From: Pseudoroseomonas ludipueritiae
Lineage (GTDB): Bacteria > Pseudomonadota > Alphaproteobacteria > Acetobacterales > Acetobacteraceae
Assembly: GCF_014490445.1 (NCBI RefSeq)
Contig: NZ_JACTUZ010000006.1
Coordinates: 30,337-94,336, forward strand
DNA length: 64,000 bases
Direction of reading: 5' to 3'
Positions 1 through 31,759 of the stretch are shown here, piece by piece. The notes beneath the pieces were generated by a model, which had not been told where the DNA came from, did not search any database, and was given only the letters and a program-made list of their open reading frames with translations. Position 1 is the first letter of the stretch. Each line of letters opens with the position of its first letter. The translations under genes and the position numbers were made by a program.

Positions 1-335
1 ATCGCCCTGAGTTCATTGCGTAGCGCCACCAAGCGGGCAATCCTGTCCTCGACCCCGGCAAGGTGTTCGCGTGCGATCGCGTCAGCTGCATCGCAGGGTT
101 CCTGAGGCAAACCAGCAAGGGCCAGAAGCTGCCGGACCGCGTCGATATCGAAACCAAGTTCGCGGGCGTGGCGGATAAATTTTAAACGTCGCACGTCTGC
201 TGCAACGTAGGTTCGTCGGTTGCCCGGCGTACGCGGCGGCAGCGGCAGAAGGCCAATACTTTCATAGTATCGGATGGTGGCGGCCTTGACGCCGGTGCGC
301 TTGGAAGCCTCTCCGATCACCATGTCGTGGGACAT
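1..335 (-). CDS. MerR-family metal regulator, 3' end cut by window edge
   Basis: About 111 residues are visible, reading leftward off the window. The N-terminus has the MerR winged-helix signature (ATIRYYESIGLLPLP, then RRLKFIRHARELGF), followed by the start of the dimerisation helix with a conserved Cys in QEPCDAADAIAREH. That Cys position is a metal ligand in MerR, CadR and PbrR. The start chosen is ATG at 333-335 (MSHDMVIGEASKRTG). A second Met four codons on is possible. It is divergent from a His-rich protein, with a MerR-type promoter between them, so it probably controls that gene. The C-terminal ligand region lies outside the window, so metal specificity cannot be assigned. The family call is secure. 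Confidence 0.9.
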   Translation of the reverse strand, partial: MSHDMVIGEASKRTGVKAATIRYYESIGLLPLPPRTPGNRRTYVAADVRRLKFIRHARELGFDIDAVRQLLALAGLPQEPCDAADAIAREHLAGVEDRIARLVALRNELRA

Positions 336-346
336 GTCCGCCTTCC

Positions 347-377
347 TTGCTCCTCTAGCTACTAGAGGATGTAGCCA
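347..377 (+). promoter_or_regulatory. MerR-type promoter/operator with 19-bp spacer
   Basis: TTGCTC (347-352) and TAGCCA (372-377) are separated by 19 bp, the over-long spacing typical of MerR-activated promoters. The spacer holds a near-perfect dyad, TCCTCTAG-CTA-CTAGAGGA (351-369). It reads rightward toward the His-repeat protein and sits 16 bp upstream of the divergent merR start. Confidence 0.7.
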
Positions 378-503
378 GTGATTCTCGGTTGGACCAGTCC
401 GTTGGTTTCCAGTCCGAGGCGTTACGTCTGAGAGCTGCACTCTGCCACGTGCTCGTGGACATATTGCAGCGCAACAGCAACAGAAATCGAGTGAGGACAG
501 ATC

Positions 504-776
504 ATGTCGCAGGAAAAGCCAGGCCCGCACCACGACCACCCGGGACATGTTCCAGGAGACCTAGACCAGCACGGTCATCGGGACCAAAGCGTGAAGGAAG
601 TTCCCGGCCAGCATCATGACCATCCAGGGCACACGCCGGGTGATCTCGACGAGCATGGGCATCGCGATAAGAGCGTGTCGGAGAAGCCCGGGCCGCATCA
701 TGACCATCCTGGCCATCAACCCGGTGACCTTGATGAGCATGGGCATCGCGACAAGAGCGCTCCGCCCAAGCCCTAA
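504..776 (+). CDS. Three-repeat His/Asp-rich small protein, putative metal chelator
   Basis: This 90-residue protein is almost entirely three tandem 28-residue repeats (DNA 513-596, 597-680, 681-764). Each repeat carries HHDHPGH followed by GDLDxHGHRD, giving six His per repeat and 18 in total, with no Cys. There is no signal peptide or membrane segment, so a cytoplasmic protein is most likely. GTGAGGACAGATC just before the ATG is a usable ribosome-binding site. A MerR-type promoter lies about 130 bp upstream and points at it. His/Asp clusters of this kind bind Ni, Co, Zn or Cu in other proteins. Metal buffering or storage here is inference. I do not recognise the family, and a translation this regular could also act as a sensor or adhesive peptide. 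Confidence 0.7.
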   Translation: MSQEKPGPHHDHPGHVPGDLDQHGHRDQSVKEVPGQHHDHPGHTPGDLDEHGHRDKSVSEKPGPHHDHPGHQPGDLDEHGHRDKSAPPKP

Positions 777-787
777 GTTCTGATACT

Positions 788-815
788 CAGGAAGGCCACT
801 GTTATGGCCTTCCTG
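788..815 (+). terminator. Hairpin terminator after the His-repeat gene
   Basis: A perfect 11-bp inverted repeat (CAGGAAGGCCA / TGGCCTTCCTG) with a 6-base loop lies 12 bp past the stop codon. No strong T-run follows, so termination efficiency is uncertain. Confidence 0.55.
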
Positions 816-1079
816 TCAGACCTCCTCAGAGGCGACTCGACTACGATATCGAGTCATTATCGCGCGCGATTTGCTGACCGGCATGGAGGCTCCGAAAGAA
901 GCCACTTCTGGGCTGTGCGACAAGCAGAACAGGCAGTCGGGCAAGGCTCTGCCCTGCTGACCGGGCAGCACGCCCTGTCTGCCGTGGGCTGTGTGGAACT
1001 TTTGGCGACGGCGACTCAAATCTATAGACGTCTCAGTGCGCATCCTCGGCCTGAACGCGAAAGTCATTCTTAACCTCAT
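816..1079 (-). CDS. Possible small CxxC protein or gene relic (doubtful)
   Basis: An 87-codon frame follows dsbA on the same strand. It contains GRALPDCLFCLSHSPEV, a CxxC context that recalls the short exported DUF2946-type proteins often found in copper clusters. However, it lacks the expected hydrophobic N-terminus and has no clear ribosome-binding site. It could be a truncated relic or chance. The other frames across this roughly 300-bp stretch show nothing recognisable. Confidence 0.25.
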   Translation of the reverse strand: MRLRMTFAFRPRMRTETSIDLSRRRQKFHTAHGRQGVLPGQQGRALPDCLFCLSHSPEVASFGASMPVSKSRAIMTRYRSRVASEEV

Positions 1080-1117
1080 TATCCAGGAATGAGGGTGCGT
1101 CGTCCGAACATGAACTC

Positions 1118-1762
1118 TCAGCGCTGAGCGTCCAACTCGCGCAGGATGAGCTCGTAGAGTTGGCGCGGGCCGAAGGACAGCAGCGGCCGCGAGTTCACGA
1201 AGAACGTCGGCGTTTGCCTGACTTGCAGGGCCTGGAGATCCGCCGTGTCGGCCTGTAGCACGCGGTCGACCTGTGGCCGCCGCCCGTCCTCCTTGGCCCT
1301 CCCGAGGTCGAGCCCCGCGGCCCCGGCGATCCGCCAGGCGGTCGCGAGGTTCGGCGCCCCATGGGCGGCCCACTCCGGCTGACGGGCGAAGAGGGCGTCC
1401 AGCACCTGCTCGAAGCGGCCCTGGAGCCGGGCCGCCTCGAGGATGCGGACGGCTTCGTCCGAGCCCTGGTGGAACGGCGCGTAGCGGAGCACCAGCCGGA
1501 CGTCCTCCGGATGGCGCGCTAGGATCTGCCCGAGGATCGGGTGGAACCCACGGCACGCCTCGCAGGAGGGATCGAAGAACTCGACGATGGTCACCCGGGC
1601 ATCGGCCTTGCCGATGACCGGCGAGTGCGGCCGGACGTAGGTGTCGTTCCGTCCGGTCGCCGCCGGTCCCGCGAGTTCGCCGTGCGGATACAGCCAGTAT
1701 CCCAAGCCGAACACCCCGAGGGCCAGGGCGCCGGTGCCGAGAGTGAGGGCGCGCCGGTTCAT
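1118..1762 (-). CDS. dsbA: DsbA-family periplasmic thiol oxidase
   Basis: This 214-residue thioredoxin-fold protein introduces disulfides into exported proteins. Residues 1-26 form an N-terminal membrane anchor or signal. The active site CEAC is at residues 67-70 in FFDPSCEACRGF, and the cis-proline loop is QTPTFF near the C-terminus. The start ATG (1760-1762) overlaps the stop of dsbB by four bases, so the two are translationally coupled and form an oxidase/re-oxidant pair. It is the last gene of the leftward lspA-sco-pcuAC-dsbB-dsbA operon. The CEAC dipeptide differs from the CPHC of classical DsbA, so isomerase-like or metalloprotein-specific roles are possible. The family call is secure and the exact substrate unknown. 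Confidence 0.88.
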   Translation of the reverse strand: MNRRALTLGTGALALGVFGLGYWLYPHGELAGPAATGRNDTYVRPHSPVIGKADARVTIVEFFDPSCEACRGFHPILGQILARHPEDVRLVLRYAPFHQGSDEAVRILEAARLQGRFEQVLDALFARQPEWAAHGAPNLATAWRIAGAAGLDLGRAKEDGRRPQVDRVLQADTADLQALQVRQTPTFFVNSRPLLSFGPRQLYELILRELDAQR

Positions 1763-2214
1763 GCCTTGCGCCCTCCCCGGGCGAGGAGGGTCATCAGGAT
1801 CAGGATGGCGGTGAAGGTCAGGAAGGACAGCATCGGAAGCGGCGCCCAGCCCAGCATCATGGCGTCGCCGGAGCACGACGGCCCGGAGGCGGCGCAAGGC
1901 TGGATGGCTTCCGACACCACGCCGTAGAAGAGCAAGCTGTGCCAGCCCGCGACCAGCCATCCGATGGTGGCCAGCGGCAGCACGTAGCGCCAGATGTCCG
2001 TGTCCGAGCGGTAGCAGGCCACCGCCAGGAGCACGGGCAGCGGGAACATGAAGGCGCGCTGGTGCCAGCACAGGGAGCACGGCGCCTGGCCCATCACCTC
2101 GCCGATGAATAGGGCGCCGAGGCTGGCGATGAGCGCCAGGGCCCATGCCGCGAAGAGGATAGCCCAAGCCCTGGTGCCGATGGCGTCATCCTCCGTCGTG
2201 GTGGCGGCGCTCAT
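1759..2214 (-). CDS. dsbB: DsbB-type disulfide bond formation protein
   Basis: This 151-residue four-helix inner-membrane protein re-oxidises DsbA and passes electrons to quinone. The first redox pair is in the loop APCSLCWHQR (C46/C49). The second periplasmic pair is C107 and C114 in QPCAASGPSC. The start at 2212-2214 was chosen because AGAAGGA lies about nine bases upstream. A longer start at 2256 would overlap the upstream gene by 20 bases and lacks a binding site. Downstream it shares ATGA with dsbA. Its presence in a MerR-controlled operon suggests disulfide repair as part of the metal response, which is inference. Confidence 0.9.
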   Translation of the reverse strand: MSAATTTEDDAIGTRAWAILFAAWALALIASLGALFIGEVMGQAPCSLCWHQRAFMFPLPVLLAVACYRSDTDIWRYVLPLATIGWLVAGWHSLLFYGVVSEAIQPCAASGPSCSGDAMMLGWAPLPMLSFLTFTAILILMTLLARGGRKA

Positions 2215-2236
2215 GGACGGTTTTCCTTCTGCCGCA

Positions 2237-2704
2237 TCAGTGTGAAGCTCCGCCATGACCCGCCACCGGCTCCCGCATCGTCACCTGAACCGGGACGGCG
2301 ACGGTTCCGCCGTCTTCCAGGTTCAAGGTCAGGGTGAAGTGCTGTCCGGCCTTGAGGTCGGCGTGTGGCTTCATCAGCATCAGGTGCAGGCCGTTCGGCT
2401 CGAAACGGATCACGCCGCCGGAGGGCACGGCCACGCCCTCCGGACGGGGGCGCATCCTGGCGACCCCGTCCTCGACGACGCTCTCGTGGATCTCGACCCT
2501 CTCGGCGACGGGCGTCGTGCCGCCGAGGATGCGCACGGGCTGGCCGCCTTCGTTGCGGAAGCTGAGGTAGGCGACCGCCGTGCCGATGCGCGCCAGCGCC
2601 GGGCGGGACCACGCGTTCTCGGCGACCACCGCGGGCTTTCCCTGCGCGAAGGCCGTTTCCGCCAGCACGCACGGCAGTGCGATGAGAAGAGCGCGGCGCC
2701 TCAT
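2237..2704 (-). CDS. PCu(A)C-type periplasmic copper chaperone
   Basis: This 155-residue exported protein has a signal peptide over residues 1-21. The Cu(I) motif is complete: H73, M84, H107 and M109 (EIHES, ARM and LHLML), matching the family spacing of His, ten residues, Met, about 22 residues, then His-x-Met. Family members deliver Cu(I) to the CuA site of cytochrome oxidase together with SCO proteins. Here the gene is coupled to sco by an ATGA overlap, which supports that partnership. A role in scavenging excess periplasmic copper is equally plausible in this resistance setting. Confidence 0.9.
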   Translation of the reverse strand: MRRRALLIALPCVLAETAFAQGKPAVVAENAWSRPALARIGTAVAYLSFRNEGGQPVRILGGTTPVAERVEIHESVVEDGVARMRPRPEGVAVPSGGVIRFEPNGLHLMLMKPHADLKAGQHFTLTLNLEDGGTVAVPVQVTMREPVAGHGGASH

Positions 2705-3354
2705 CACGAGCGTGCCTCCCCCTTTGTGGAACCCGGCGCGGTGTCGCCCAGCGCCAGCCGGATCTTGGCGACGGCGGTCGGAAGAGGCTCGTGGGTGTCG
2801 AGGAAGCCGCGCAGCGTCCCCTCCGGCCCGATCAGGTAGATGGAGGCGGTGTGCTCCATCACGTAGGAATCTCCGCCCGTGGGAACCTTGCTGTAGTAGG
2901 AGCGGAACGCCTTCGCCGCCCCCGCCACCTCCTCCTCCGTGCCGGTCAGACCGATAAGGGCGGGATGGAAGTTGGCTACGTAGCTGGCCAGCAACTCCGG
3001 GGAGTCTCGTCCGGCATCGACGCTGATGAACAGCGGGCGCACCGCCGCGGCTTCCTGCGGCGACAGGCCATCCAGCGCCTCGGCGATGTAGCCGAGGCCG
3101 GTCGGGCACACGTCGGGGCAGTGGGTGAAGCCGAAGAACACCAGCCGCACCCGCCCCGCGTAGGTCGCGTCGGTGACACGCTGGCCCGTGTGGTCGACCA
3201 GCGCGAAGGGCGATCCGATGGGCTGCTGCATGCCGCTGGATCGCGGCGCGGACGCTCTTCTGGCGCGCAGCATCCATTCGGACAGGCCCCACCCCAGCGC
3301 GCTCCCAGCCGGGATGCCGACGCCAAGGGCGACCAGCAATGTCCTGCGGTTCAT
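2704..3354 (-). CDS. SCO1/SenC-family copper-binding thioredoxin-like protein
   Basis: This 216-residue protein has an N-terminal anchor (residues 1-24, preceded by MNRRT) and a thioredoxin-like fold. The copper ligands are visible: C79 and C83 in THCPDVCP, and H168 in VMEHTA. SCO proteins insert copper into, or reduce the cysteines of, cytochrome oxidase subunit II. The gene is coupled by 4-base overlaps to lspA upstream and the PCu(A)C chaperone downstream. The association with DsbA/DsbB suggests a thiol and copper handling module at the outer face of the membrane. Confidence 0.92.
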   Translation of the reverse strand: MNRRTLLVALGVGIPAGSALGWGLSEWMLRARRASAPRSSGMQQPIGSPFALVDHTGQRVTDATYAGRVRLVFFGFTHCPDVCPTGLGYIAEALDGLSPQEAAAVRPLFISVDAGRDSPELLASYVANFHPALIGLTGTEEEVAGAAKAFRSYYSKVPTGGDSYVMEHTASIYLIGPEGTLRGFLDTHEPLPTAVAKIRLALGDTAPGSTKGEARS

Positions 3355-3974: not shown

Positions 3975-4047
3975 CCTCGCCGCCTTGCCGTCCACTCTGG
4001 CTCCTGCCTCCTGGGGATGCGCCTTGCGACGGCATGCCCACCCACCC

Positions 4048-4078
4048 AAGATGGACCCTGTAGTCACTACATGGTCAA
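4048..4078 (-). promoter_or_regulatory. PbrR/CadR-type promoter for the lspA-dsbA operon
   Basis: On the minus strand, TTGACC and CATCTT are separated by a 19-bp spacer holding ATGTAGTGACTACAGGGTC. It is nearly the same as the promoter at 39907-39937. The divergent merR start overlaps it. Confidence 0.8.
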
Positions 4079-4538
4079 TGCTTTGATTGCAGAAAGTTCA
4101 TTCAACATCGGCGCCTTGGCCCGGGCCACCGGCACCAAGGTGGAGACCGTCCGGTGGTACGAGAAGGTCGGTCTGCTGCCCACGCCAGCCCGCAGCGCGG
4201 GGAACTACCGCACCTACGGCGAGGCCCATCTCGGACGTCTGAGCTTCATCAGGCGGGCGCGCGAGCTTGGCTTCTCGCTGCAGCAGATCCGCGCCTTGCT
4301 TGGGCTCGTCGGCTAGCCGGACCTGCCCTGCGAGGCGGTCGACGCGATCGCCCGCGAGCACCTGGCCGAGGTCGAGCGCAAGATCGCGGACCTGCAGGCG
4401 CTCCGCCGGGAACTGGACTCCCTGGTCGGGCAGTGCGGCTGCGGCACCGTGTCCGAGTGCCGCATCGTCGAGGCCCTGGCGCCGACACTTGAGGCGCTCG
4501 CCGCGGTGGCCGGAACGCCCCTGTTCCACTCCCGCTGA
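4071..4538 (+). pseudogene. PbrR/CadR-like MerR regulator broken by in-frame TAG
   Basis: Reading from 4071, the frame codes a MerR DNA-binding domain (GTKVETVRWYEKVGLL, then RLSFIRRARELGFSLQQIR). It meets TAG at 4314-4316 after 81 codons, then continues in the same frame to TGA at 4536-4538. The downstream part is intact and homologous (PCEAVDAIAREHLAEVERKIADL, truncated here, then SECRIVEAL). The close relative at 39486-39902 has ordinary codons across this point. Only a truncated DNA-binding fragment can be made unless the TAG is read through. The metal-ligand Cys residues all lie after the stop. A sequencing error cannot be excluded from the sequence alone. Confidence 0.85.
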
Positions 4539-6288: not shown

Positions 6289-7788
6289 TCAGGCAATCAC
6301 GCCGCCGCTCTCCGGGAAGACGTACCACGAGCCGAAGTCGCCGATGCCCTCCACGAAGCCTGGCGCCTCGGCGAACATGAAGTCGCTCTGCCGCAGGTCG
6401 TCCTTGGCGATGCCCTCGAGGAGGATGGACCCCGCGAAGGTGCCATCCTCGCCCATGCCCCAGCCGACCAGGGCACCCTCGGCCGTGTCCTGGACCACGA
6501 CATCCGCGGGCTGGATGCCCTCCATGAAGGCGATGTGGTCGAAGGCGCCTTGGGCCTCGCCGGTCGCTTCGAAGTCCAGGACCACGTCGTGGCCGCTGTC
6601 CATCGACACCATGAAGGCGTCGGCGCCGGTGCCGCCGACCAGGGTGTCGTCGCCCATGCCGCCGTTCAGCATCCCGTGCGCGGCGCCTTCGTCGAGGTAG
6701 TCGTTCCCGTCGCCACCCATGAGCTCGTCGGACTCCGCCCCGCCGAAGAGCCTGTCGTCGCCAGCCTCACCCATCAGGCGGTCCATGCCATCGCCGCCCG
6801 CCATGGTGTCACGGCCGTCGCCACCCTGGAGATGGTCGTCCCCGGCCAGGCCTGAGATGGTGTCGTCTCCCGCCAGTCCGAAGATCGTGTCCGATTCCGA
6901 CGACCCCGTCAGGGTATCGGCACCAGCGGTGCCGCGGAGGACGGCATTCCCCTCGATGTCGAAGATCAAGGTGTGGTCATCGAAGACGTGGTCGGCCAGA
7001 AGGTCGAAGATGGCACCGGCCTGCGGCTCACCAGGCACCTCGGGGCCCGCTACGCTGGGCGTCGGTGCCTCGTCGGCTGGGCCGTCAGGCACCCGCAGGC
7101 CGGGAGGCAGGTCGGCCGCGTCGCCGAACATGAAGTCGTCCTGCGCCAGGTCCGCCTTGAAGACGCCTTCCAGCAGGACTGAACCCCCGTCCCAACTGAC
7201 CTGGACCCCATCTGCGGTGTCGGCAAAGGCAAGGTCTGTCCATTGGAGGCCGTCCATGACCGCCAGGTGGTCGAACATGCCGGGACCGGCGGTGAAGTCC
7301 TTGATGACGTCGTGGCCACTCATCCGACCGATCATGAAGGCGTCCGGGCCGCCTCCGCCAACCAGGGTGTCGTCGCCCATGCCGCCGTCGACGGTGCTGT
7401 GCCCTTCACCCTCGTCCAGGTAGTCATTCCCGGGTCCGCCGCGCACCGTGTCGGCGCCTGGGCCGCCGTAGAGGGTGTCATTGCCGTCACCACCTTCGAC
7501 CTCGTCGTCGCCCATATTGCCGGAGACCACGTCGGCGCCCGCACCGCCGTGGAGAACATCGTCCATGCCGCCCCCGCCAATGCGGTCGTCGCCTTCAAGG
7601 CCCCAGGTGAACTCGGCGCCGTCGGTGCCGCCCAAGGTGTCTGCGCTCTCACCGCCGAAGGTGACGTTGTGGACATGGCCACCGGCCTCGAAATTGAAGT
7701 GAAGCCCACCCAGCGCGCCGTGCAGGGTGTCAGCCAGCCGGTCCGTGAGGTTCGTGAGCAGGCTGCTGAGATGCTGATTCTGGCTCAT
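6289..7788 (-). CDS. Duplicated RTX (hemolysin-type Ca-binding) repeat protein
   Basis: This 499-residue protein has two related halves. Each half carries several nonapeptide repeats of the GGxGxDxLx type (for example GGDGNDTLYGGPGAD) and then a C-terminal-like module (GHDVIKDF in one half, GHDVVLDF in the other, each ending near DFMF). The family binds calcium in a beta-roll and is normally exported by type I secretion using an uncleaved C-terminal signal. No N-terminal signal peptide is present and no type I secretion genes are in the window. There is no enzymatic domain. Why such a protein sits inside a copper cluster is unclear. Extracellular metal binding or a surface layer are guesses. 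Confidence 0.85.
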   Translation of the reverse strand: MSQNQHLSSLLTNLTDRLADTLHGALGGLHFNFEAGGHVHNVTFGGESADTLGGTDGAEFTWGLEGDDRIGGGGMDDVLHGGAGADVVSGNMGDDEVEGGDGNDTLYGGPGADTVRGGPGNDYLDEGEGHSTVDGGMGDDTLVGGGGPDAFMIGRMSGHDVIKDFTAGPGMFDHLAVMDGLQWTDLAFADTADGVQVSWDGGSVLLEGVFKADLAQDDFMFGDAADLPPGLRVPDGPADEAPTPSVAGPEVPGEPQAGAIFDLLADHVFDDHTLIFDIEGNAVLRGTAGADTLTGSSESDTIFGLAGDDTISGLAGDDHLQGGDGRDTMAGGDGMDRLMGEAGDDRLFGGAESDELMGGDGNDYLDEGAAHGMLNGGMGDDTLVGGTGADAFMVSMDSGHDVVLDFEATGEAQGAFDHIAFMEGIQPADVVVQDTAEGALVGWGMGEDGTFAGSILLEGIAKDDLRQSDFMFAEAPGFVEGIGDFGSWYVFPESGGVIA

Positions 7789-7886: not shown

Positions 7887-8219
7887 TCAGGTGCTCATCT
7901 GGCGGCAGGACGCGGCGCACTTGCGGCACTGCGCGACGCAGTCCTCCATGCCCCCCACGGCCTCGCAGCTTTTGGCGCACTCCTCGCAGATCTCGGCGCA
8001 CTCGGCGCAGGTGTGCTTGTGGTGGGGCGTGCCGATCAGCATCATGTCGGCAGAAGTCTGGCAGATGGTGGCGCAGGCCATCATCAGCCTGAAGTGTTGC
8101 GGTTCCACATGCTTGCCGCCCACCTCCAGACAGTGGTTCATGGCCATGCCTAAGCAGGTGGAGTGACAGCGCAGGCATTCCTCAATGCAGGCCTGCATGG
8201 CGGGGGTCATCTGATGCAT
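7887..8219 (-). CDS. Four-helix-bundle copper storage protein (Csp-like)
   Basis: This 110-residue protein has about 13 Cys spaced along predicted helices (EECLRCHSTC, CAECAEICEECAKSCE, CVAQCRKCAASC) plus His and Met. The pattern is that of Csp or YhjQ four-helix bundles, which hold many Cu(I) ions on Cys thiolates. There is no signal peptide, so this is a cytosolic Csp3-like form. The start at 8217-8219 has GGAGAAG just upstream. A longer frame begins at 8339 but has no ribosome-binding site. It sits between the RTX gene and a Cys-rich exported protein, all read leftward. Confidence 0.88.
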   Translation of the reverse strand: MHQMTPAMQACIEECLRCHSTCLGMAMNHCLEVGGKHVEPQHFRLMMACATICQTSADMMLIGTPHHKHTCAECAEICEECAKSCEAVGGMEDCVAQCRKCAASCRQMST

Positions 8220-8345
8220 TTTTCTTCTCCGTTGGGATGTCCGTGAGGCGAGGTTCGCCAGCCCGTACGCCGGGCCGACGGCCGATCCTGGTGGAGCGCT
8301 GACGCGGTCCCGTGCCCTGTCAGCAGCGGTTCCGGGCAATGCTCC

Positions 8346-29140: not shown

Positions 29141-31759
29141 TCAGGACGCTGGGTATTCTTGGCTTTTGAAGGACAGCTTCCGTGTGGCCTCTGGCGCGTC
29201 CGCGATCTTCCGGATGCTCCCCCAGGTCTGCTTGTAATTCGGGATGACGAACTCGTTCACGCCCTTGGAGACCACGTTGCCCTGCACGCCGGTCGGGTAG
29301 GCGAAGAGCATGAACGTCTCGTTCCGACGCGCTGACGGCGTGGGCCAGACCATGGCCTGAGTGCTGCCATTGTCGTTGTAGACCTCGACGAGGTCGCCCT
29401 CCCTCAGGCCAAGCTCGGCCACGTCCGCCGGATGCATCTGGATGTAGGGAAACGGGAAGCGGTCGCGGACGAACTCGTTGTGCTGGTCGAGGTAGACCGA
29501 CTGCCAGACGTGGTTGGCGCGGCCATTGTTCACCAGGAAGCGGAACTTGTCCTTCTCCGCCTGCTTGCCCTCGGCCTGGAGCCCACGCCACTGCGCGGCG
29601 GCGAACCTGGCCCTGCCGTCCGGCGTGTTGAACCTGCCGTCGGCGTAGAGCCGCTTGGTCCCGACGATCCGCTCCGTGCCGCCGGTTGGGGGCGCCGCGG
29701 CCGCGGATGGCCCGGTGCCCGGCCCGGCCTGCTGCACCGGTTCCTTTCCGCGGGTGCTCTCGACGGCCGGACCCTGGACGACCATGCCAGGTGTGCCGCC
29801 CGTGGTGGTCCCGGCGGCTGCCGGACCCGAGCCCTCCAGGCCTGTCGCGGGCTCCTGGAAGCCATTGGTTCCCATCGCGCGCAAGCGGGCGTAGGTGACG
29901 AACTCGCCGCCCTTCTCGTGCTGGCGGTAGCCGTCGTTGAAGGAATCCTCCTCGGTCCGCCAGTCGTATCCCTTGAAGCGGTCGGCGACGTCCGGCTTGC
30001 CCGCCGCCCGCCAACTCCGCTCCAGCGCTTGCGCAAGGCGGGCGACGATGAGGCAGTCCGGCAGGGCGCTGCCTGGCGGGTCCATGTAGCGGTCGGTCAG
30101 CCGCATCCGACGTTCGCCGTTCATCGAGGTGAGGTTCATCTCGCCCGAGGTCGCGGCCGGAAGCATGACATGGGCGCAGGAGCCAATCTGCGTCGGCACG
30201 ATGTCCACATCCACGACGAACAGGCCACCCTGGCGGATTGCATCCATGACCGCCCGGACTTGGCCCTCGCGGTCCCCCGCCGGGACGGAGTCCATGGCCG
30301 CCTTCACGAGGTCTGTCCGGCGCTTGTAGGCCCGCTTGAACTCGCTGGCGTTCAGTGTCGTCTTGAAGTGATCGCACCCCCACACGTGGTGCACGCCGCC
30401 CTGGCCGCCGATCAGAAGCTGGTCGACGTAGGGCGCCGGGCGCCCGCCCGGGTAGTCCGGCCGCGAGTAGCCCTCCTGGTGGCCGCCGAGGCGCACGCAG
30501 CCGCCGCCGGGCCTGCCGACGTTGCCGGTCGCCAGCGCGACGTTCACCAGGGCCTGGTTCGTCCGGTAGTTGTCGTTCCCCCAGATGAGCCCCTTCTCGT
30601 AGGCGAACATCGTCCGCCGCCGGGCACCGCCCTGCTTGGGCTCGGCGATCCAGGCCGCCGCCTTGCGGATGTCCTCCGGCGCCAGGCCGGTGATCCGCGC
30701 CGCCTCGTCGATGCCGGTCTGGTTGGCGCGGACCGCTTCCTGGAAGCCGGAGGTGCTGGCCTCGATGAAGCCCCGGTCCACCCAGCCCCTGGCGGCGATC
30801 TCCGTCAGGAGGGCGTTGAACAGCGCGAGGTCGGTGCCGGAGTTAATGGCGAGGTGCAGGACGTTGTCCTTGCCTGCCTCGACCTCGCAGGCCGCGGTGG
30901 TCGGGGTGCGCCGCAGGTCGACGATGACGATCCGGCCGCGGTCGACCGGCTCGCCGCCGAACTCCGCCTTCTTCTTGTCCAGGCTCGTGCCGCGCAGGTT
31001 CGGCACCCAGTGGTTCAGGAAGTAGTTGGTCTGCGTCTCGAGGGGATTGGCGCCGACCACGAAGATGGTGTCGGCGAGCTCGGCGTCCTCGTAGCAGTTG
31101 TTGAGCTCGCCCACGCCCATGTCGCGCGTGCCGTGGACCTCGCTGTTGTAGGCAGGGCGGTTGTGGATCCGGATGTTCCGGACCTTCATGCTCCCGAAGT
31201 AGAGCTTGCCGGTCGCCCAGGTGTTCTCGTAGCCGCCGCCCGCGCCGCCGTGGTCGTAGGCGGAGACGATCAGCCCATCCTCACCCTGCGCCTCTACGAC
31301 CCGCCGCGTCACCTCGGCGACGAGGCTGACGGCATCGTCCCAGGATGTGGGCGAGAGCGTGCCGTAGCGCCATACCATCGGTTCGGTCAGGCGGTCACGC
31401 AGGGTGCCGGTCACCGTCGAGTAGGAGAGCTCACCGATGCGGGCGCCACGGATGGACCCGAGACCTGAGTTCACCACGCAGCCCTTGTCCGGCATGACGA
31501 CCAGGTGCACGTCCCGGCCGTCCTGCTTGACGACGTTGTACATGGAGGGGCTGAACCAGGCCGCGCTCTCGGCACCCTGCTGCTGCGTCAGATCCTCGCC
31601 GAACAGGTTCCGGTCCGGTTGCGGGCCGCCCTGCCGGTCCACCGGCCAGGAAACGGCGTGATAGCCGCAGCCGACGATGCAGAAGTGGCAGACGACGTTC
31701 TGGACCTTGGCGTCGCGCGGCGGAATGGGGAGCCGGTCGACGTTGCGCTTGTAGGCCAT
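29141..31759 (-). CDS. aioA: Arsenite oxidase large (molybdopterin) subunit
   Basis: This 872-residue subunit of the DMSO-reductase superfamily oxidises arsenite to arsenate in the periplasm. The [3Fe-4S] ligands are C24, C27 and C31 in VVCHFCIVGCGYH, with a Ser in place of the fourth Cys further on, as is usual for AioA. Cofactor-binding motifs include VVGANPLETQTNYF and GNVGRPGGGC. A Pro/Gly/Ala-rich low-complexity insert lies near residues 650-710. It has no signal peptide and is carried out with AioB by the Tat route. It follows aioB by 11 bp. Confidence 0.95.
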   Translation of the reverse strand: MAYKRNVDRLPIPPRDAKVQNVVCHFCIVGCGYHAVSWPVDRQGGPQPDRNLFGEDLTQQQGAESAAWFSPSMYNVVKQDGRDVHLVVMPDKGCVVNSGLGSIRGARIGELSYSTVTGTLRDRLTEPMVWRYGTLSPTSWDDAVSLVAEVTRRVVEAQGEDGLIVSAYDHGGAGGGYENTWATGKLYFGSMKVRNIRIHNRPAYNSEVHGTRDMGVGELNNCYEDAELADTIFVVGANPLETQTNYFLNHWVPNLRGTSLDKKKAEFGGEPVDRGRIVIVDLRRTPTTAACEVEAGKDNVLHLAINSGTDLALFNALLTEIAARGWVDRGFIEASTSGFQEAVRANQTGIDEAARITGLAPEDIRKAAAWIAEPKQGGARRRTMFAYEKGLIWGNDNYRTNQALVNVALATGNVGRPGGGCVRLGGHQEGYSRPDYPGGRPAPYVDQLLIGGQGGVHHVWGCDHFKTTLNASEFKRAYKRRTDLVKAAMDSVPAGDREGQVRAVMDAIRQGGLFVVDVDIVPTQIGSCAHVMLPAATSGEMNLTSMNGERRMRLTDRYMDPPGSALPDCLIVARLAQALERSWRAAGKPDVADRFKGYDWRTEEDSFNDGYRQHEKGGEFVTYARLRAMGTNGFQEPATGLEGSGPAAAGTTTGGTPGMVVQGPAVESTRGKEPVQQAGPGTGPSAAAAPPTGGTERIVGTKRLYADGRFNTPDGRARFAAAQWRGLQAEGKQAEKDKFRFLVNNGRANHVWQSVYLDQHNEFVRDRFPFPYIQMHPADVAELGLREGDLVEVYNDNGSTQAMVWPTPSARRNETFMLFAYPTGVQGNVVSKGVNEFVIPNYKQTWGSIRKIADAPEATRKLSFKSQEYPAS

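Follow-up and report, generated by a model that had tools for sequence, protein, structure and literature searches.

Bacteria are usually held to buffer metals in the cytosol by means of small thiols and a handful of proteins rich in Cys. Bacterial metallothioneins of the SmtA/BmtA type are small cytosolic metal buffers that bind via Cys clusters. In Helicobacter, the small and very His-rich proteins Hpn and Hpn-2 (Hpn-like) serve metal homeostasis, with sequestration put forward as an idea for Hpn (parts of PMC4671568). The mammalian histidine-proline-rich glycoprotein carries tandem His/Pro/Gly repeats whose number varies by species, and it has been proposed as a zinc chaperone (parts of PMC4101493). 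Hydrophilins and histidine-rich dehydrins are hydrophilic, Gly-rich and probably disordered, and some of them bind metals (parts of PMC7448490 and PMC6275027).

The window, i.e. the whole stretch of DNA that was analyzed (64,000 nucleotides), starts at base 30337 of a 94-kb contig in a draft genome of 5.35 Mb. At its left end it holds the following features:

1..335, minus strand: MerR-family regulator, N-terminal 111 of 141 residues (Pfam MerR_1, E 4e-20; MerR-DNA-bind, E 7e-20)
347..377, plus strand: MerR-type promoter/operator, TTGCTC (347-352), 19-bp spacer, TAGCCA (372-377) (promoter scan; same element in L008, L009, L018, L019, L021)
504..776, plus strand: His/Asp/Gly/Pro-rich protein, 90 aa (ORF list with translation; repeats, codon test, alignment with 24 further rows)
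788..815, plus strand: perfect 11-bp hairpin directly 3′ of the stop codon (stem search)
1038..1325, no strand: right-hand copy of a direct repeat of 288 bp with the 3′ ends of mntH and dsbA (repeat comparison)

The 90-aa protein contains 18 His, 14 Pro, 12 Gly and 12 Asp, no Cys and no aromatic residue. Its GRAVY is −1.9, and the high His content in a small soluble protein (18/90) is of the Hpn/Hpn-2 type. Units of exactly 28 residues occur three times (starts at residues 4, 32, and 60; first unit EKPGPHHDHPGHVPGDLDQHGHRDQSVK), show pairwise protein identities of 79-82%, and each comprise two His clusters, HHDHPGH and HGH, plus conserved Asp residues. The first-pass annotation had described 90 residues in three 28-residue repeats with 18 His and no Cys; the reading frame at 504-776 and its composition bear this out. 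Composition also suggests that the protein is disordered.

Between the units, first and second codon positions were 82-89% identical, and third positions 36-54%. Because third positions have diverged while first and second positions have been conserved, the repeats are old and have been kept as protein; the window gene is under strong protein-level selection. The three units were absent from the output of a DNA repeat finder run on the window, since they are conserved more as protein than as DNA. The same codon-position test refutes the suspicion that there is no gene here and that the frame arose merely through repetition of the DNA or as an antisense artefact. Such a suspicion could draw on records that lack an annotation at the site or carry one on the other strand, and on a simple gene caller that also picked antisense frames in several loci. 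Against it stand third codon positions that are scrambled while the protein is kept, dN/dS values of 0.06-0.17 wherever estimable (14 of the 21 pairs among seven 90-residue members, with dS saturated in the other 7), and 30 distinct proteins that are open frames differing mostly by whole units. We therefore give an artefact hardly any credence.

The family set was assembled from a scan of genome contigs with short exact peptide patterns (25 loci, close relatives only), a search of 193 relatives that added one more locus (2/193 including the own genome; L003/L066), and tblastn of plasmids, in which 8 records matched and 6 were examined. It has 34 rows including the own locus, with 30 distinct proteins of 1-5 units each and 79 units in total. 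Cys is absent from all 30 proteins, which have a single aromatic residue among them. All 79/79 units carry His at position 7, Asp at positions 11, 13, and 19, and Gly at position 16, and 78/79 carry His at position 17; the search pattern had fixed positions 1, 2, and 4. With 79 units in 30 distinct homologues, a chance origin is excluded. The first-pass annotation had staked its reading on repeats conserved as protein in relatives, and both codon positions and homologues show them to be so conserved.

As far as these searches reach, the family is rare, unnamed, and alphaproteobacterial. Counting the own genome each time, it was found in 4/299 genomes of the order, 1/385 of the class, and 1/299 of the phylum sample. 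The window protein had no match in Pfam at E up to 1, and searches of NCBIfam, PADLOC, and PDB sequences gave none either. Pfam searches with 25 aligned members returned only MarR (best E 0.12, 6/25) and DUF1075 (best E 0.14, 3/25), and homology to either was dismissed as chance given these values and the few members. The letters of the repeat were not found in the open-licence PMC literature, and among the titles and abstract starts listed by topic searches, none named the family. The earlier remark that no described metal-resistance peptide of this build was known thus came through the protein database search that had been proposed for it, with no described family matched. The family is easily missed by annotation: of the 8 matching plasmid records, 5 have nothing annotated at the site (their gene table being incomplete by its own description), and one annotates a gene on the strand opposite to the His gene.

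Roseomonas sp. KE2513 has two intact copies on one contig with a decayed unit remnant between them (L045:1471-1689), and a third copy on another contig. The remnant, a weak match (E 2.7e-4), consists of one short, degraded unit within a stop-to-stop frame of 72 residues and was left outside the 34 rows. Of the carriers, four either bear the name metallidurans or were isolated from mine spoil; for STM 2683 and STM 4661 the mine-spoil origin is given in the part of PMC3668242 used here.

We think it probable, with real room for doubt, that the window protein is a soluble, intrinsically disordered, cytosolic metal-buffering protein for ions of the Zn/Cd/Co class, Hpn-like in action and MerR-switched. 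That the protein is disordered, resides in the cytosol, is induced, and binds and buffers metal is what we infer; composition and gene neighborhood are the support for a metal sponge. With its two His clusters (HHDHPGH, HGH) and conserved Asp residues, each 28-residue unit is predicted to take up one or two divalent ions of borderline character (Zn, Cd, Co, Ni, or Cu(II)). The adjacent MerR, with a candidate C81/H118/C124 site, would sense excess cytosolic metal and untwist the 19-bp-spacer promoter to switch on only the His gene and MerR itself. The His protein would then lower free metal until neighboring exporters (CadA/ZntA-type P1B-ATPase, CDF, Czc RND) remove it. Metal buffering is favored because of the His/Asp composition, purifying selection, the exporter neighborhood, the conserved operator with its single perfect place in the genome, and carriers named metallidurans or from mine spoil; it is weakened by the half of the groups in which no exporter gene was found within ~4 kb, by the EcfG-type copies, and by the absence from the Mesorhizobium data, all considered below.

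For the neighborhood analysis, near-copies were collapsed by hand (L003 into L066; L046 and L047 into L004; L019 and L021 into L018; L023 into L017; L051 into L048; L028 into L026), giving 26 groups, of which 13 have a P1B-ATPase or CDF gene at most ~4 kb away (L002, L004, L005, L006, L007, L008, L010, L011, L014, L016, L027, L050, and L066), with loci having less than 4 kb on a side counted as misses; in the remaining 13, no such gene was found within that distance. The own genome has 13 PF00122 and 4 CDF places, i.e. a ~3% chance of one being near a random site. Set against this value, 13/26 has a binomial P of ~1e-13, which is a guide only, because a single genome supplied the expected value and metal genes tend to sit together in islands. 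In two annotated plasmids, the His gene sits in a metal-efflux run, directly before CDF and P1B genes. The order on the Pararoseomonas plasmid is CzcA, two-component system, small proteins, His gene, CDF, P1B-ATPase, MerR; a Roseomonas mucosa plasmid is arranged in much the same way, and there an insertion-sequence transposase precedes the His gene. An annotated two-component system precedes the His gene in one of the two. A zinc-ribbon protein is encoded nearby in 8/34 rows.

In three czc-linked copies (L004, L007, L010), a shared TTTACAAAA[CG]TAAA element followed by a GGAAC box was seen ~130-140 bp upstream of the His gene. The two together may represent a site for a response regulator and an EcfG-like promoter.

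In 4/26 groups, an Nramp gene lies nearby (own mntH, the L018 group, L020, and L027). The protein might on that account be a carrier or store linked to uptake, which holds Mn/Fe/Zn-class ions from Nramp or passes ions to an exporter, with delivery and not mere detoxification as its task. The other 22 groups, some of which have little flank, gave no Nramp match, and no partner gene turned up at every locus. The own MntH matches as a standard Mn transporter, and a His-rich site is a poor fit for hard Mn(II). There is precedent in Helicobacter Hpn, which sequesters nickel and which its authors place in nickel transfer to urease (parts of PMC4671568). On balance, a carrier or store of this kind is improbable.

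The regulator that faces the window gene is encoded by a frame running past the left edge of the window; the full gene lies at L002:8247-8672 in the contig and encodes 141 aa. Its MerR HTH and MerR-DNA-bind domains, together with a dyad-bearing promoter whose spacer falls in the 19-20 bp range, place it in the MerR superfamily. The best solved structure was CadR (PDB 6jgv; residues 5-135 aligned, E 1.5e-23). Its scores were too low to pass any of the 13 listed NCBIfam models, including the CadR/PbrR model TIGR02047 (96.2 bits against a cut-off of 151.45), and it lacks the Cys that the CadR/PbrR type has at CadR position 112: the alignment puts Ser117 there, followed by His118. The candidate sensor residues are C81, H118, and C124. 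Cys81 and Cys124 are present in all eight aligned MerR rows. In six of the eight, a Ser, Thr, or Asp takes the place of CadR Cys112 and is followed by His118; in the L027 and L010 regulators this His is missing, and the residue just before the Cys112 position is a Cys (C-x7-C spacing). A Cys/His/Cys site would favor Zn/Co/Ni-class ions over Cu(I) or Hg.

The MerR-type promoter points toward the His gene and carries the dyad TCCTCTAG-CTA-CTAGAGGA (window 351-369). A MerR facing the His protein across such a promoter had been proposed from the start, and the divergent MerR gene, the TTGCTC/TAGCCA boxes, and the dyad confirm it. The operator scan (TTGNNN, 19-20 bp, TANNNN, dyad arm of at least 6 bp) covered the 34 family rows, 33 of which have upstream DNA. 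The 19-bp-spacer operator was intact in 6/33 (window gene, L008, L009, L018, L019, and L021), compared with 0.04 expected from order-1 Markov copies, and a divergent MerR adjoins the gene in all six. The MerRs of the other five rows are 63-69% identical to the window MerR. In L018, L019, and L021, the two dyad arms are altered in concert (CTCTAG/CTAGAG to CTCAAG/CTTGAG). A weakened copy of the operator is present in L006; in L005 and L011 the dyad is whole or partial and the −35 box is missing.

Within the 5.35-Mb draft genome, the pattern CCTCTAGNNNCTAGAGGATGTA has a single place without mismatch, the window operator. With up to 3 mismatches, forward and reverse searches gave 3 places: the window operator, its palindrome on the other strand, and a site on another contig ~1 kb before a P-type ATPase match. 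A reversed control pattern likewise gave 3 places, so only the perfect match is informative. Because the operator occurs once without mismatch in its own genome, the MerR looks dedicated to the window His gene. The label "MerR-controlled" from the first-pass annotation therefore fits the window gene, with its divergent MerR and 19-bp operator, but does not define the family: a MerR adjoins the His gene in only 7/34 rows.

Control in some relatives appears to be of another kind. The sequence GGAAC-N16/17-CGTT is found in 6/33 upstream regions (0.085 expected from order-1 Markov copies), i.e. in L016, L017, L022, L023, L025, and L049, all without an adjacent MerR; L017 and L023 are near-copies, which leaves at least 5 independent copies, and L024 has no upstream DNA. 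The motif of sigma-EcfG is given as GGAAC-N16-CGTT (parts of PMC3892343 and PMC7083833), and CATT is a used −10 box (PMC7083833, same part). Counting in a relaxed form (spacing 15-18, C[GA]TT), 10/33 regions have a site, with 0.35 expected; of the four rows gained in this way, L003 and L066 represent a single place, and in L027 a MerR is next to the gene. The sites are positioned at −56 to −79. The upstream region of the window copy has no EcfG site, and EcfG control was rejected for it. GGAAC in the leaders of L005, L008, and L009 has no CGTT at EcfG spacing. As judged from these promoters, some bacteria appear to have put this protein under a metal switch and others to have tied it to the general stress response; this is new and our most unexpected result.

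These promoters, which fit stress induction in some relatives, also bring in the main rival explanation. The protein might be a hydrophilin-type protectant: disordered, very hydrophilic, Gly-rich, made in general stress (drying, osmotic, oxidants), and shielding macromolecules. Any metal binding would then serve to restrain redox metals, as in plant dehydrins rich in histidine, whose binding of metals is described in parts of PMC6275027. With the hydrophilicity index taken as minus GRAVY, the window protein (12/90 Gly or 13%, GRAVY −1.9) lies beyond the hydrophilin thresholds of Gly >6% and index >1 (given in the part of PMC7448490 used). Genes of the TerD/TerF type lie beside some of the non-exporter loci (by Pfam on L017; TerD-like by similarity in five loci), and universal stress protein and phosphoketolase genes adjoin the copy in L025. 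The window copy itself, however, is preceded by a MerR promoter and lacks an EcfG site, the surroundings of the family are enriched in exporter genes, and the strict HHDHPGH...DLD...GHRD pattern exceeds what bulk hydrophilicity needs. To our knowledge, MerR control and a metal-gene context are not typical of hydrophilins or dehydrins. We consider a protectant of this type unlikely, though less so than the uptake-linked carrier.

Expression data bearing on metal control come from Mesorhizobium carriers, for which Zn/Cd RNA-seq has been reported, with cadA and ccdA among the regulated CDS (parts of PMC3668242). A His gene lies 6-8 kb from cadA on a contig of STM 2683 (cadA, ccdA, lspA) and on one of STM 4661 (cadA, ccdA, CDF). 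Among the Zn/Cd-regulated CDS in the part of PMC3668242 used here, neither of these two placeable copies has a fitting label, the matching of contigs to labels being based on gene order. The STM 2683 contig would correspond to labels 74xxxx, with the His gene at ~25 kb, beyond 740031, the last label listed there following cadA; the STM 4661 contig would correspond to 36xxxx, with the His gene at its very start, ahead of 360013, the first one listed there. The Mesorhizobium gene may be un-annotated there, or EcfG-controlled and not metal-controlled. MerR control, as first assumed, thus does not extend to relatives in general, given an EcfG-type promoter in its place in six upstream regions and two placeable copies absent from the Zn/Cd list.

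The remaining Mesorhizobium copies, L014 (STM 4661) and L024 (STM 2683), are not mappable to labels. L014 has a three-unit copy 1.4 kb before a P1B-ATPase (L014:4001-8194); this ATPase may be the Zn-induced MESS4v1_610026 of PMC3668242. The gene MESS2v1_1280026 (Zn and Cd induced, function unknown, Table 4 of the same paper) was considered as a His copy and dropped on the contig-label mapping.

The hairpin at 788-815 is a probable transcription end. It is without a T run, and a terminator scan called no terminator-like site. A perfect stem of at least 9 bp occurs within 100 bp after the stop codon in 18/34 family rows, with 0.12 expected; one other row has a 7-bp stem, and the other 15 have none of 6 bp or more. 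The segment with merR and the His gene (L002:8239-9374, ~1.1 kb) lies between two 288-bp direct repeats that are 86% identical, the left copy being at L002:7952-8238, outside the window. Since these repeats flank both sides, as a likely trace of the event, they suggest that the merR-His cassette was inserted between mntH and dsbA with duplication of the flank.

Several other genes of the window were noted. Genes for DsbA-like, DsbB-like, PCuAC copper chaperone, and SCO1/SenC proteins (Pfam) adjoin the cassette on the minus strand at 1118-3354 and are likely a copper-delivery cluster. A second MerR gene with an in-frame stop (4017-4538) is divergent from a signal peptidase II gene; its frame covers 4017-4316, and similarity to an intact relative goes on past the stop. 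A minus-strand frame of 499 residues (6289-7788) has many GGxGxD-type repeats, which we take to be RTX-like. A Cys-rich frame of 111 residues (7887-8222) has a weak DUF326 match (E 0.036) and presumably resembles four-helix copper-storage proteins.

A wider reading is attractive but tentative, and we hold it with less than even confidence. The family would be a horizontally moving, undescribed alphaproteobacterial one, a Cys-free modular metal-binding repeat of 1-5 units that was independently placed under MerR, into Czc-type two-component exporter loci, and under sigma-EcfG. Metal buffering would be part of general stress in some bacteria and metal-specific in others, and the MerR would be a new Cys/His/Cys type of sensor. 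A Cys-free repeat protein delivered in a ~1.1-kb cassette together with a dedicated sensor, a promoter, and a probable terminator would make a metal buffer that is compact and immune to oxidation, and it would lend itself to studying how metal capacity depends on the number of units. The EcfG link of some copies leads to a testable claim on metal release during stress.

Compared with known systems, the window MerR shares the MerR-type promoter geometry of CadR, CueR, and ZntR, and CadR aligns with it. It differs from CadR in having Ser117 for Cys112, with a His next, and from all three in that its sole perfect genomic operator faces a His-rich protein and not an exporter. Hydrophilins and histidine-rich dehydrins are likened to the family by composition. 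The histidine-proline-rich glycoprotein is an analogy only, as it is a multi-domain plasma protein with repeats of 5 or 10 residues (parts of PMC4101493). Metallothioneins have the buffer role proposed here, but the Cys clusters that define them have no counterpart in the family, with 0 Cys in 30/30 proteins. Claiming membership in neither, we suggest by analogy that the family would work like Hpn or metallothionein. Helicobacter belongs to a different phylum from the carriers of the family, which by description is set apart from Hpn and Hpn-2 by its regular 28-residue units, its Asp and Pro-Gly, and its MerR or EcfG promoters.
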